From Gynuella sp. (GTDB lineage: Bacteria; Pseudomonadota; Gammaproteobacteria; Pseudomonadales; Natronospirillaceae): a stretch of DNA of 64,000 bases. Shown one piece after another: positions 38,518-63,228 of this stretch. Location: assembly GCA_028282465.1 (NCBI GenBank), contig JANQHX010000056.1:62001-126000 (forward strand), written 5' to 3'. The position numbers and the translations under genes are program-made. The notes below the pieces were generated by a model. That model was not told the origin of the DNA. It worked only from the letters and a program-made list of their open reading frames with translations, and searched no databases. Within the stretch, counting starts at the first letter, position 1, and every line of letters begins with the position of its first letter.

Positions 38518-40197
38518 ATGACTGAATCTTTTGCTGAACTATTTGAAGAAAGCCTTAAAGGCATAGAAATGGCCCCTGGGTCAATTATCACTGGTGTGAT
38601 TGTTGACATCGATAGCGACTGGGTGACTGTTCACGCTGGTCTTAAATCTGAAGGTGTAGTACCTCGTTCCCAATTCCTTAATGAAATGGGTGAATTAGAA
38701 GTTGCTATTGGCGACGAAGTTAAAGTATCTCTGGAAGCCGTAGAAGATGGCTTCGGTGACACTAAACTGTCTCGCGAAAAGGCCAAACGTGCTGAATCCT
38801 GGCTGGAACTTGAGCAGAAGTTTGAAGACAGCGAAGTGGTTATGGGTGTTATCAATGGCAAGGTTAAGGGTGGTTTCACTGTAGATGTGAATGCTATCCG
38901 TGCCTTCCTGCCTGGTTCTCTGGTTGACGTACGTCCAGTACGCGACACAGCTCATCTGGAAGGTAAGCCATTAGAATTTAAAGTTATCAAGCTTGATAAG
39001 AAGCGCAACAACGTTGTTGTTTCTCGTCGTGCGGTTCTTGAACAGGCTAACTCTGAAGAGCGTGATGAACTGCTGGCTAACCTGGCTGAAGGTCAGAGTG
39101 TTAAGGGTATCGTTAAGAACCTGACAGACTACGGTGCGTTCGTAGATCTGGGTGGTGTTGACGGTCTGTTGCACATCACTGACATGGCTTGGAAGCGTAT
39201 CAAGCACCCATCAGAAATCGTTGCAGTAGGTGACGAGATTGATGTTAAGGTTCTGAAATTCGACCGTGAGCGTAACCGCGTATCACTGGGTCTGAAGCAG
39301 CTGGGCGAAGATCCTTGGGTAGATATTAAGGCTCGTTACCCAGAAGATGCAGTTGTAACAGCTAAGGTTACTAACCTGACTGACTACGGTTGTTTTGCTG
39401 AGTTGGAAACTGGTGTTGAAGGTCTGGTTCACGTGTCAGAAATGGATTGGACTAACAAGAACATCCACCCATCTAAAGTTGTTCAAGTTGGCGACGAAGT
39501 TCAGGTTATGGTTCTGGATATCGACGAAGAACGTCGTCGTATTTCTCTAGGTATCAAACAGACTCAAATTAATCCTTGGGAAGCTTTCTCGGGCAACTTC
39601 GAGAAAGGTGGCAAGGTTAAAGGTAAGATCAAGTCTATCACTGACTTCGGTATCTTCATTGGTCTGGAAGGTGGTATCGACGGTCTGGTTCACCTGTCTG
39701 ACATCTCTTGGAACGAAGCGGGCGAAGACGCTGTACGTCGTTACAAGAAAGGTGACGAAATTGAAACCATTATCCTGTCTATTGATGCTGAACGTGAGCG
39801 TATCTCCCTGGGCGTTAAGCAGTTGGAAAGTGATCCATTCCAGGAATTCGTTGCTGAAAAAGATAAGGGTGTAATCGTTAAAGGTACGGTTAAAGAAGTT
39901 GATGCTAAGGCAGCTGTTATCACTTTAGGTGAAGAAGTTGAAGGCGTATTGAAAGCTTCTGAAATCAGCCGCGATAAGGTTGAAGATGCTCGTAACGAAT
40001 TCAAAGAAGGCGACGAAGTTGAAGCTAAGATCATCAGCGTCGACCGCAAGAACCGCGTAATCAGCTTATCTATTAAAGCGAAAGATCAAGACGATGAGAA
40101 AGCTGCTCTGAAAGAAATGCGTGAGCAAGAGCAGGTAGCTGCAGGTCCTACTACTATTGGTGACTTGATTAAGCAGAAAATGGAAGGCGATCAGTAA
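38518..40197 (+). CDS. rpsA: 30S ribosomal protein S1
   Basis: A 559-residue protein with six S1 RNA-binding repeats (about residues 19-87, 105-171, 190-260, 275-347, 362-434 and 449-518; repeats 3-5 have the strongest signature, e.g. [18 protein letters not shown]). It binds mRNA leaders to the 30S subunit. Codon use shifts to that of a highly expressed gene. The leader between cmk and rpsA (about 280 bases) includes a CTCCTT/AAGGAG hairpin at 38303-38323, which might serve S1 autoregulation. A terminator follows. Confidence 0.97.
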
Positions 40198-40223
40198 TTT
40201 ATAGCTGGTAATAACGTCTAATG

Positions 40224-40253
40224 AAAAAGCTCGCTTCGGTGAGCTTTTTTTTT
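40224..40253 (+). terminator. Rho-independent terminator of rpsA
   Basis: Stem GCTCGC/GTGAGC closed by a cUUCGg tetraloop, followed by nine T residues. This is a textbook intrinsic terminator 27 bases after the rpsA stop. Confidence 0.92.
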
Positions 40254-40257
40254 GCTT

Positions 40258-40347
40258 GAAGCTGGAGGCTTGAAGCAAGAAGCTAATAATTGCTTCAGGC
40301 TTCAGACTTCAGGCTTCAGGCTTCAGGCTTCAGGCTTCAGGCTTCCA
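40258..40347. repeat. Heptanucleotide tandem array (GCTTCAG) with inverted lead-in
   Basis: From 40292, eight 7-base units follow head to tail: six are exactly GCTTCAG, the third is ACTTCAG and the last GCTTCCA. The preceding bases (40258-40285) read as degenerate inverted 7-base copies: TTGAAGC, TGGAGGC, TTGAAGC, AAGAAGC. They are separated from the direct array by a short AT spacer, so the element can fold into a long hairpin. It lies between the rpsA terminator and the SulP gene. Confidence 0.9.
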
Positions 40348-40434
40348 ACCTAACTATTAACTGTGTTTTATACCCCAATTCTGATAGTATCCGCCGCCTT
40401 CTAAGCAGCCCCTTCCCGAGAAAATTGTAGATTC

Positions 40435-42000
40435 ATGTTTGATTTAATTAAAACCAACCAGACGAATATAAAAAACGATGTTTTGTCTGGAATAACGGTA
40501 GCGCTCGCACTGGTCCCAGAAGCTGTTGCATTTGCATTTGTTGCTGGCGTGGAGCCAATGGTTGGCCTATATGCAGCCTTTATGATGGGATTGATCACCT
40601 CTGTGTTTGGTGGACGTCCGGGTATGATTTCAGGCGCTACTGGTGCAATGGCGGTTGTGATGGTTTCTCTAGTGGCCGAGCATGGCGTGGAATATTTATT
40701 TGCTGCCGTCATTCTCGCAGGTGTGCTTCAAATGACTTTCGGTATTCTGCGGTTGGGTAAATTTATTCGCTTAGTACCTCATCCGGTTATGCTGGGTTTC
40801 GTAAACGGTTTAGCAATCGTTATCTTTTTAGCTCAATTAAGCCAGTTCATGGTGAAGAATGCATCGGGTGAAATGGAATGGATGTCTGGTTCAATGCTGT
40901 ACACCATGCTTGGATTAGTCGCTATCACTATGCTCATTATTCACTTTTTACCCAAATTGACCACAGCTGTACCTTCTGGGCTTGTGGCTATTGTTGCTAT
41001 CACACTTGCTGTCGTTTTTGGTGGTCTCGAAGCTAGAACAGTTATCGACTTCGTTAGAGATATGGTACCAGCAGAACAAGCTGCCACTGCATCCTTGGAA
41101 GGCTCGTTGCCTATGTTTTCTCTACCTGAAGTGGCTTTTAGTGTGGAAACACTAATGATCATTCTGCCTTACAGTTTGATTTTGGCTGCGGTTGGTTTGA
41201 TAGAGTCGTTGTTGACATTAACCCTTATTGACGAAGTAACTAACACCCGCGGTCGTGGTAACCGTGAGTGTTTAGGCCAAGGGCTGGCAAACACGGTAAA
41301 CGGCTTCTTCGGCGGCATGGGTGGTTGCGCCATGATAGGCCAAAGTATGATTAACATTAATTCTGGTGGGCGTGGTCGCTTGTCTGGTATTACAGCGGCG
41401 TTGGTATTATTGGCATTTATTTTATTTGCCGCAGATTTAATTGAAATGATTCCTCTAGCAGCCTTGGTTGGTGTTATGTTCATGGTTGTGTTGGGTACTT
41501 TTGAATGGTCTTCATTCAGAATCGTCGGCAAAATTCCAAAATCAGACGCCTTGGTAATTGTATTGGTTTCGGGAGTGACTGTTGCAACTGACTTGGCTAT
41601 TGCCGTCGTCGTTGGTGTAATTGTTTCGGCATTGGTGTTTGCTTGGAAACATGCTCAAACTATTTATGCATTAGAATCTACTGATGAGAAAGGTTCGAAA
41701 GTTTACGAGCTTCACGGGCCCATATTTTTTGGTTCAGTGACAAACTTTAAAGAGATATTTCATCCGGAGAAAGATCCTGACGATGTGATTATAGAATTTC
41801 AGTATTCTAGAATTGCCGATCACAGTGGCATTGAAGCACTGGATTCAGTGGCTGAGAAATATCAGAAGCTTGGTAAAACGCTTCACATAAGACATGTTAG
41901 CCCGGAATGCCGAAAGCTCTTGAGAAAGGCTGGTAACCTTTGTGAAGTGAATGTACTCGAGGATCCAACCTACAAGGTTGCAACAGATGTTCTAGCTTAA
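40435..42000 (+). CDS. SulP-family anion transporter with STAS domain
   Basis: A 521-residue inner-membrane transporter with 10-12 helices. The SulP opening motif is [36 protein letters not shown] follows. A C-terminal cytoplasmic STAS domain runs from about residue 425 to 515. SulP members carry sulfate, bicarbonate or other anions; the substrate cannot be read from this sequence. It stands alone behind the heptamer array. Confidence 0.9.
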
Positions 42001-48064: not shown

Positions 48065-49861
48065 ATGAAAGTTGAAATATTCAGCAGTGTTATCCGTTCT
48101 TCATTTAGCTTCTTGTTAAAAAACCAAGTGTGCATTTTAATGCGAACTATAACTGTGGTTCTGGCTATTTTGCTTTCCGGTTGTTTAGAAATCGAAACTG
48201 AAGAGACAACGGATGAAGCGAACACAACGGATACAGATACTGGTACAACCAATACTGATACCACAACAGACACAGACACGACAGATACGGATACAGATAC
48301 TGGCACAACGGATACTGTAACAGATGATGATACCTCGACTGACACTCTAGCTTGGCCAATAGAAGATGGCAGGTTTGGCGTTGCAGAAGAAGTGTTAGTG
48401 TTACCACCTCCTAACAACCAAAACGCAATGCATATTCCAGATGTGCAAGCTAGTTACCCTGATGTTAATTGGAATACACTTGATAGACTCTATATTCAAG
48501 CAGGTCAGTATGCATTTATACGTCTGGGTAATTTACCTATTAGATCGCCAGATGATCCATTAATTATTACCAACAAGGATGGACAAGTACGTGTTGGAGG
48601 CCTTAACCACTATTATTTGTTTTCCATCGGAGGCGGTGCTAATTGGGTTTTGACCGGGCGCTATGACCCTGAAAGTGGTACCGGCCATGAAGACTACCCT
48701 GGCCACAGGGGTGGTAATTTTGCGAACTCTCGAGACAGTTACGGCATATTGGTTGACGATGATTATCTGCGTGATGGCAATTCGGGTATTGCCATAGGTA
48801 GCTCAGCAACAGACTTTGAATTGGAGTATATTGAAGTTCGTGAAGTCGGCTTTGCTGGTATTACCATTAAAACCGATGATATTGGTAGTGCGCATATGCG
48901 TAACGTCAAGCTCCACGATCTATATATTCATGATACCGGTAGCGAAGGTCTTTATCTTGGAAGTACACAGGCGCAGCCCCAACATAAATTAATTGATTGG
49001 GAAATCTATAACAACCGAGTGCTTCGCACCGGAACAGAGGCGATCCAGATGGGGCAAATGTCTGGCTCCAATACCATCAGAAACAATATTTTTGGGCCTG
49101 CTGCAATGGATTGGCGGGCAGCATTTCAAAATTATCAAGATTTCAATTTTCAAATTGGTTTACGTGAAGGCTTACTCAGAGTTGAGAACAATATCTTTTT
49201 AGGCGCTGCTGGGCAGATCGTTTCTTTCTTCGCCCATGATGTTGCAGGGGACTCAACTGATACTAATGTTGGCGCTCAGTTTTATAATAACTATTTTGAA
49301 GGCATGCGCAGTCTGGGCATGTATATTAATTCAACTGCTTTGGAAGGCATGAGCTATGAATTCGTAGATAACACTTTTGGAGGATTTCGATTCTTGCGCG
49401 ACGAAGTCTATGATGTCGAACCCTACAACCATCTATTGCGAATATTTAACAGTACTACACCCATAACCCTGACTGGAAATACTTGGAGTGGCCCAGAACG
49501 CCTGAGTATTGAAGTTGAAAACAATGGAACTGAGGGTAATCACACCGCAACAAATAACGTCAACGAAGAACCTGAAAAAATTCTTTTTGTTGACAGCGGC
49601 CTTCCTGATAATTTTGATTGGCTAACCATTGAAATGTGGACAGAAACGGCAACTTTAGGAAATAACCAACCCGTGGACTATGAGCTTGATGATTATGTAA
49701 CCCATCTAGGCATTCCATACCGTTGTCGAATTGCTGTGTGTACAAGCGGACTTATCCCTACAGACTCTCCCGACGCCTGGGAGGCCTTGCCTTATCTTGC
49801 TGATGATGTTCGAGTAAGGCTAGGTACCACTTGGGAACATTTAGGTTTGCAGCCTAATTAA
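48065..49861 (+). CDS. Secreted beta-helix lipoprotein with Thr/Asp linker
   Basis: A 598-residue protein. A lipobox LLSGC lies at Cys40 and is followed by a low-complexity Thr/Asp linker to about residue 97. A right-handed parallel beta-helix region (about 120-470) then has repeats such as HMRNVKLHDLYIHDTG, IDWEIYNNRVLRTG and RNNIFG. The end (about 545-598) resembles a chitin-type carbohydrate-binding module (YVTHLGIPYRCRIAVCTS and DAWEAL). This suggests a surface polysaccharide-binding or cleaving protein. The first ATG has the better ribosome site (GAGG); the ATG at 48140 gives a shorter, more usual signal peptide. Confidence 0.75.
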   Translation: MKVEIFSSVIRSSFSFLLKNQVCILMRTITVVLAILLSGCLEIETEETTDEANTTDTDTGTTNTDTTTDTDTTDTDTDTGTTDTVTDDDTSTDTLAWPIEDGRFGVAEEVLVLPPPNNQNAMHIPDVQASYPDVNWNTLDRLYIQAGQYAFIRLGNLPIRSPDDPLIITNKDGQVRVGGLNHYYLFSIGGGANWVLTGRYDPESGTGHEDYPGHRGGNFANSRDSYGILVDDDYLRDGNSGIAIGSSATDFELEYIEVREVGFAGITIKTDDIGSAHMRNVKLHDLYIHDTGSEGLYLGSTQAQPQHKLIDWEIYNNRVLRTGTEAIQMGQMSGSNTIRNNIFGPAAMDWRAAFQNYQDFNFQIGLREGLLRVENNIFLGAAGQIVSFFAHDVAGDSTDTNVGAQFYNNYFEGMRSLGMYINSTALEGMSYEFVDNTFGGFRFLRDEVYDVEPYNHLLRIFNSTTPITLTGNTWSGPERLSIEVENNGTEGNHTATNNVNEEPEKILFVDSGLPDNFDWLTIEMWTETATLGNNQPVDYELDDYVTHLGIPYRCRIAVCTSGLIPTDSPDAWEALPYLADDVRVRLGTTWEHLGLQPN

Positions 49862-62909: not shown

Positions 62910-63228
62910 ATAGGCTAGAAACTTGATGCCGGAAGCCAGAAGCCGAAAATCAGCTTCTAGCTTCTAGCTTCTAGCTTCTAGCTTCTAGCTTCTAGCTTCT
63001 AGCTTCTAGCTTCTAGCTTCTAGCTTCTAGCTTCTAGCTTCTAGCCGGAACGCCGAACCGTTCTAACTTCCGGCAAAAAACCGACAATTAATTCGGTAAC
63101 TGATTGCCGCTGCAAACTATTTCAAAATTCGAAAAACGATCCAACTCACTGAAATTAAAGGCTTTTTCATAACTGGCACTGCTCTTGACTTATAACCTGC
63201 AAGAGACAGTTCCATTAGGAGAAGTTAA
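62910..63228. other. flgE-flgF intergenic region with heptamer array
   Basis: Unusually long gap for a flagellar operon. It holds the 13-copy heptamer array (62952-63042) and its inverted arms. At 63174-63189 is TGGCACTGCTCTTGAC, a sigma-54-like motif with a poor -12 (GA for GC). The flgF ribosome site (TAGGAG) is at its end. Confidence 0.75.
62928..63077. repeat. Heptanucleotide tandem array (AGCTTCT x13) bounded by inverted arms
   Basis: Thirteen perfect head-to-tail copies of AGCTTCT span 62952-63042. The left flank has degenerate inverted 7-base copies (CGGAAGC, CAGAAGC). Outer arms GCCGGAAG (from about 62929) and CTTCCGGC (about 63070-63077) are inverted repeats, so the whole can fold as one long hairpin. 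Similar design to the array after rpsA but with a different base at the unit's end. Confidence 0.93.

Follow-up and report, generated by a model that had tools for sequence, protein, structure and literature searches.

Mirrored heptamer arrays dispersed at gene ends in Gynuella sp., and their possible growth by seven-nucleotide steps

Introduction

Between rpsA and sulP in Gynuella sp., a perfect-looking array of heptamers faces shorter, degenerate copies of the same unit in inverted orientation. The locus raises the question of how such a mirror-image array is made: by slippage on the spot, by insertion of a mobile element, or by selection for the hairpin that its two arms can form. We analysed it within a stretch of 64,000 nucleotides, called here the window, and compared it with the rest of the genome and with other bacteria. 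Positions given without a locus handle are those of the window, + strand.

Results

The gene upstream of the element was identified as rpsA, and its intrinsic terminator (40223..40250, a 12-pair stem with a T tail) abuts the element on its upstream side. By direct reading, the left arm (40254..40283) begins with an extra GCTT at 40254, which lengthens it beyond the four inverted, degenerate units GAAGCTG (40258), GAGGCTT (40265), GAAGCAA (40272) and a partial GAAGC (40279). An 8-base spacer, TAATAATT (40284..40291), separates it from the right arm (40292..40345), which reads GCTTCAG, GCTTCAG, ACTTCAG, four further GCTTCAG and GCTTC(CA), the third unit carrying a first-base change and the last being partial. 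Tandem Repeats Finder returned the interval 40292-40345 as 7.7 copies of period 7 (95% matches, score 101). The eight GCTTCAG-type units and four degenerate inverted copies that a sequence-only reading had placed after the rpsA terminator were thus confirmed. Downstream, sulP (PF00916 match) starts at 40435. No promoter-like site was found in 40150-40480, and Rfam 15 at gathering score gave no match in the window.

That reading had also proposed a long hairpin, and the capacity to form one was borne out: the arms pair in the predicted folds, the RNA fold of 40253-40350 reaching -46.4 kcal/mol (z -4.75, none of 200 shuffles as good) and the DNA fold, with the terminator included, a z of -3.61 (1 of 200 shuffles as good).

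A second and longer element, absent from the earlier note, lies in the flgE/flgF gap (62925-63074). Direct reading gave a left arm GATGC-CG-GAAGC-CA-GAAGC at 62925..62943; the right arm (62953..63045), read directly and by Tandem Repeats Finder, consists of 13 GCTTCTA units with 100% matches. The tail (63044..63074) holds GCCGGAA...CTTCCGGC and CGAACCGTTC inverted repeats beyond the heptamers, CCGAACCGTTC-type ones among them. Both elements are made of head-to-tail 7-bp units, as heptameric simple sequence repeats are, and neither GCTTCAG nor GCTTCTA contains the GGG tract of a quadruplex. The only other array in the window at a score of at least 40 is an imperfect tandem repeat of about 20-27 bp (CACAACGGATACAGATACGG-type) at 48223-48325.

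A whole-genome search for three consecutive GCTTCNN units found four loci with 23 matches between them (control 0), and mirrored patterns gave six clear loci (reversed-pattern control 0). Apart from the two copies in the window, these are the gltX/TonB-dependent receptor gap, the divergent glyA/ettA gap (glyA by its SHMT match), the ahpC/ahpF gap, and a site 5' of mutM that follows two ribosomal-protein genes, one identified by search as that of L28 and the other, we assume, that of L33 (rpmG). The element is therefore not unique, and the dispersed family suggested earlier exists. A looser pattern added one probable small member, immediately 3' of a stop codon (C5:16253), and one doubtful match (C100:133674). 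The rpmG/mutM copy, judged by eye, also sits after a strong terminator. Compared by eye, the copies have their heptamer cores in common and no other sequence; arm length, spacer and variants are different in each, and CCGAAC/GTTC inverted repeats occur in two. About 60 bases past the gltX array, before the TonB-dependent receptor gene, lies a riboswitch-like sequence (L027:1640-1720), presumably of the cobalamin kind. Chance was rejected as the origin of the elements, reversed-pattern controls being 0 in all genomes searched by mirrored or tandem pattern.

We then asked how far the period of seven extends. Arrays with a score of at least 14 in a 319,312-base sample of the genome had period 7 (3), 14 (3), 21 (3) or 15 (1), 14 and 21 being multiples of 7. 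A relaxed mirrored statistic gave 6 for the GAAGC core and 0 for 29 permuted cores in the same 319 kb, a sample picked partly for its known copies, so that the 6 is not an unbiased density. A general heptad excess was not seen in this genome once strict-mirror gaps were removed, period 7 then being at chance (tandem gaps, 71 vs 70). Among the periods tested (4-12, 15, 17, 18), 7 was by far that of the commonest intergenic arrays in samples of our genome, Zobellella and the relative G021 (3, 12 and 8 arrays). Three genome samples together gave 25 arrays with period 7. A reverse-complement partner lay within 120 bp of 17 of them, against 0/25 in each of the reversed and complemented controls. 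With strict-mirror gaps removed, period 7 remained strong in Zobellella tandem gaps (119 vs 20) and weak in Stutzerimonas/Pseudomonas loci (56 vs 27), where period 4 was raised as well (48 vs 26). Tandem gaps of 39 non-gammaproteobacterial loci exceeded shuffles at period 7 (187 vs 59) and also at period 8 (118 vs 57). No period-7 intergenic array of score 12 was present in 400-kb samples of each of G017 and G011, against 8 in G021, and there was no period-7 excess in 20 gaps from a 50-kb stretch of E. coli K-12.

No gap orthologous to rpsA-sulP was found in relatives, where the gene after rpsA looks by eye like what we take to be ihfB. At the rpsA end, compared in 11 of 22 loci, our own included, G021 has other heptamers and its sibling G010 has no such array. 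The flgE/flgF gap gave matches in 19 of 22 family genomes, our own included. Gaps of at least 60 bp from 17 relatives contained strong heptads of other units in five cases. Period-7 matches over the 17 gaps numbered 160 vs 23.7, nearly all from these five, which were chosen by eye (137 vs 9.8); the other 12 gave 23 vs 14.0. The related genomes G011 and G004 have mirrored arrays of another heptamer there, whose lengths differ by a single 7-bp unit, and G017 carries about 12 CCCGCAG units. Two gaps, L263 and L268 (G018 and G020), have CGTCTTT-type motifs every ~17 bases and no heptads; period 17 pooled over 12 flgE/flgF gaps was 37 vs 13.2.

Farther afield, 95 other genomes from the family and order were searched for the strict mirrored pattern, and none had it. 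Another pattern, 3x3 AAGC, matched 2 of the 369 genomes searched in the class, our own not among them. A scan of GTDB contigs gave at least 115 stretches with the mirrored pattern; the matches listed come from Stutzerimonas, Pseudomonas, Zobellella, Halomonas, Acidobacteria, Gemmatimonadetes, Nitrospira, Chloroflexi and others, and some isolated short ones among the 115 could be due to chance or be hairpins of the ordinary kind. In seven genomes traced from these loci, matches numbered 1 to 25 per strand, with controls at 0. An Acidobacteria MAG (G465, locus L119) has 25 mirrored elements, mostly with near-identical GAAGCCAGAAGCCAGAAT...ATTCTGGCTTCTGGCTTC arms and a variable centre, which are more uniform than the gammaproteobacterial ones. 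Zobellella also has long arrays of the unrelated heptamers CCTCACG and TCACACC (L219:11748-11798, L220:15063-15142), so period 7 is not bound to the AAGC core. In G021, three tandem copies of a ~250-bp repeat (L321:16750-17600) each contain a CAAGCTG heptamer array; several arrays of this genome adjoin similar AAGTAA-containing sequence, and are perhaps the heptad ends of a larger dispersed element.

Genes around the 115 listed elements were called with a codon-usage gene caller written for the analysis. Seventy-one elements lay in tandem gaps, 15 in convergent and 3 in divergent ones, while 14 were called coding and 12 were edge calls. As control, the remaining gaps of these loci with a minimum length of 70 bp were tandem (189), convergent (34) or divergent (74). 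Divergent gaps are avoided among the matches listed (Fisher p 7.7e-7, the 14 coding and 12 edge calls dropped), in a statistic that ignores kinship, since orthologues, forming 10 groups among the listed loci, were kept. One of the six members in our genome is nonetheless in a divergent gap (glyA/ettA), and 4 of 21 Zobellella divergent gaps also have heptads. We considered a strand bias of expansion and rejected it: within our genome the 3' arm was the longer in 3/3, and this does not generalise, the 71 listed tandem gaps having a longer 3' arm in 21, a longer 5' arm in 21 and equal arms in 29.

In Stutzerimonas and Pseudomonas, orthologous elements occupy the same site, with drift at the two variable bases and unit numbers that change in multiples of 7 bp; lengths differ by 14 bp between L078 and L089, and by 7 bp between L050 and L128 and between L081 and L141. 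The ongoing expansion read from the perfect copies at rpsA gains partial support from these differences, which belong to other genera and other loci. Facing variable bases of the two arms were complementary in 27/52 cases in 26 gammaproteobacterial elements, against 28.5 by shuffling. Over all 115 listed elements the count was 153/230 against 75.8, because many non-gammaproteobacterial matches are perfect palindromes. Elements with more units in one arm tend to have more in the other (rho 0.39, n=115 listed elements). The claim that the array is not ordinary slippage was weakened: the frequency of mirrored partners is unusual, but the perfect 3' arm looks like a product of slippage, and the arm dinucleotides do not match each other.

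At the gap between dnaJ and dapB, all 41 Stutzerimonas-group genomes matched, and in the 30 loci analysed a hairpin was kept (mean z -2.96, 23/30 below -2). Heptamer arrays were visible by eye in 6 of the 30 gaps. The other 24, which include near-identical sequences and are not 24 independent cases, still gave period 7 above shuffles at 82 vs 11.8, period 14 at 52 vs 10.1 and period 20 at 37 vs 9.4. Across the 12 gaps that could be aligned, 26 pairs were predicted and 6 of them showed double changes. Conservation of this hairpin looks selected. A CTTGGAG/CTGGAGC unit just 5' of dapB, from its position likely the dapB Shine-Dalgarno site, is in phase with the right-arm heptads (L108:3400-3490, orthologues L226-L255). 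Since these heptads run in phase into that unit, it is suggested that the Shine-Dalgarno unit seeded the array.

Discussion

With moderate confidence, we propose that a mirrored heptamer array begins as a stem-loop and is enlarged by slippage in steps of 7 nucleotides, perhaps together with template switching, where gene ends tolerate it. A short stem-loop would arise by chance, or through a template switch that copies one arm in reverse complement, and each arm would then lengthen by 7-nucleotide replication slippage, with fold-back DNA favouring more slips. The arms would homogenise separately and so come to differ in the dinucleotides between common cores. Selection would purge arrays that grow inside coding regions and, for the most part, those in divergent gaps, where promoters lie, leaving gene ends. 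The rpsA-sulP copy itself may have little or no function. Growth in place, rather than mobile insertion, is indicated by the 7n differences, the unlike arm variants and the other heptamers in the relatives' flgE/flgF gap. Template switching is a plausible source of the mirror, a subject to which a study of quasipalindrome mutation reportedly belongs. PMC8794818 describes template switching as generating hairpins. Against slippage count the conserved dnaJ-dapB hairpin, the excess of period 8 outside gammaproteobacteria and the Zobellella heptads in divergent gaps, and it leaves the choice of 7 over 5, 6 and 8 without explanation.

The main rival, possible though rather unlikely, is a selected RNA hairpin, an intercistronic or 3'-end stem-loop of REP/BIME-like role that protects the upstream mRNA or separates the expression of neighbouring genes, heptads being one rapidly changing way to build it. 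Strong RNA folds, the preference for tandem and convergent gaps and the correlated arm lengths fit it, as do, on the dapB side, the hairpin of the 30 Stutzerimonas-group loci with its double changes and the period 7 above shuffles in gaps without obvious arrays. Little RNA is expected, however, behind the strong terminators that precede the rpsA copy and, by eye, the rpmG/mutM copy; the variable bases of the gammaproteobacterial arms are not complementary above chance, and compensatory change can be mimicked by template switching. At rpsA, the position behind a terminator speaks against such a hairpin being needed; the series from the dnaJ-dapB gap speaks for one in that gap. A binding-site array for a protein that recognises an AAGC core every seven bases would explain why the core is kept in both arms while the next two bases vary, and why distant genomes show similar cores. 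It is improbable: the query required the core, which makes its wide occurrence partly a matter of construction, relatives have unrelated heptamers in flgE/flgF, and Zobellella has its CCTCACG and TCACACC arrays.

REP/BIME and REPIN elements are dispersed hairpins at gene ends, built on a conserved REP palindrome. Our elements share the dispersal and the gene-end position, and the genome has one Y1_Tnp (PF01797) gene (G000:C25), for which no connection to the heptamer elements was established. A REP moved by such a RAYT transposase, or a MITE, would account for the scattered copies and for the inverted repeats found in two of them. We regard this as very unlikely, as no conserved palindrome or other sequence beyond the cores was seen by eye, the copies differ in 7-base units as well as in arm length, spacer and variants, and orthologous sites change stepwise by 7 bp or carry other heptamers. 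Least credible is a contingency locus that tunes sulP or its neighbours by phase variation; long perfect arrays with 7n copy differences would suit it, but the elements are not in coding frames, their neighbours are housekeeping genes (rpsA, gltX, ahpC/ahpF, mutM), and no promoter-like site was found around the rpsA-sulP gap (40150-40480).

We found no description of GAAGC/GCTTC mirrored heptamers in the open-licence papers searched. Among published kinds, the heptamers of Xanthomonas come closest, likewise paired as inverted repeats. In PMC4692102, the G-rich heptamers (GGGAATC in Xanthomonas, GGGGA(C/T)T in Nostoc) are intergenic and present in many copies, Xanthomonas has 70-75 pairs of convergent arrays that make inverted repeats, and among gammaproteobacteria such heptamers are reported for Xanthomonas and not for others. 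As described there, they resemble ours in period, intergenic position, lengths that vary from species to species at a given gene pair, a bias towards aligned ORFs and away from divergent gaps (here 71/15/3) and pairing of arrays (here 17/25). They are unlike ours in being G-rich and quadruplex-forming, the GAAGC/GCTTC units being without G-tracts and our genome having few of the elements. Geobacter metallireducens also has tandem heptanucleotides at many genome sites, but PMC2700814 gives them nearly fixed unit numbers (four or five), other units, and a proposed role as regulator sites or RNAs. The TAACTGA repeats of Beggiatoaceae are intergenic heptamers of variable copy number too; according to PMC4679880 they are, unlike ours, almost all direct, with one inverted set, and mostly 5' of start codons. 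PMC4692102 and PMC4679880 relate, at second hand, that heptamers are over-represented among bacterial simple repeats, together with the idea of a polymerase footprint.

Tentatively, and with the chances rather against it, these elements may represent a general, unrecognised bacterial class: gene-end or intercistronic hairpins of mirrored heptads whose position is kept while the unit turns over between species, which a neighbouring functional heptad such as the dapB Shine-Dalgarno CTTGGAG/CTGGAGC can seed, and whose 7-nucleotide period is set by the replication machinery. The unit is GAAGCNN in our genome, in Stutzerimonas, in Zobellella and in Acidobacteria, and GAGACGG/GTCTCCC, GCTGCGG or CAAGCTG in relatives. 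If the slippage reading holds, the elements would also serve as variable-number markers for these organisms. On the same reading, intergenic hairpins could arise and be rebuilt fast by a fixed 7-nucleotide mutational step, with no mobile element involved. The arrays would then offer a testable system for the cause of the dominance of heptamers among long simple repeats in bacteria, and a test of how much of the apparent conservation of intergenic hairpins is owed to selection and how much to template switching.
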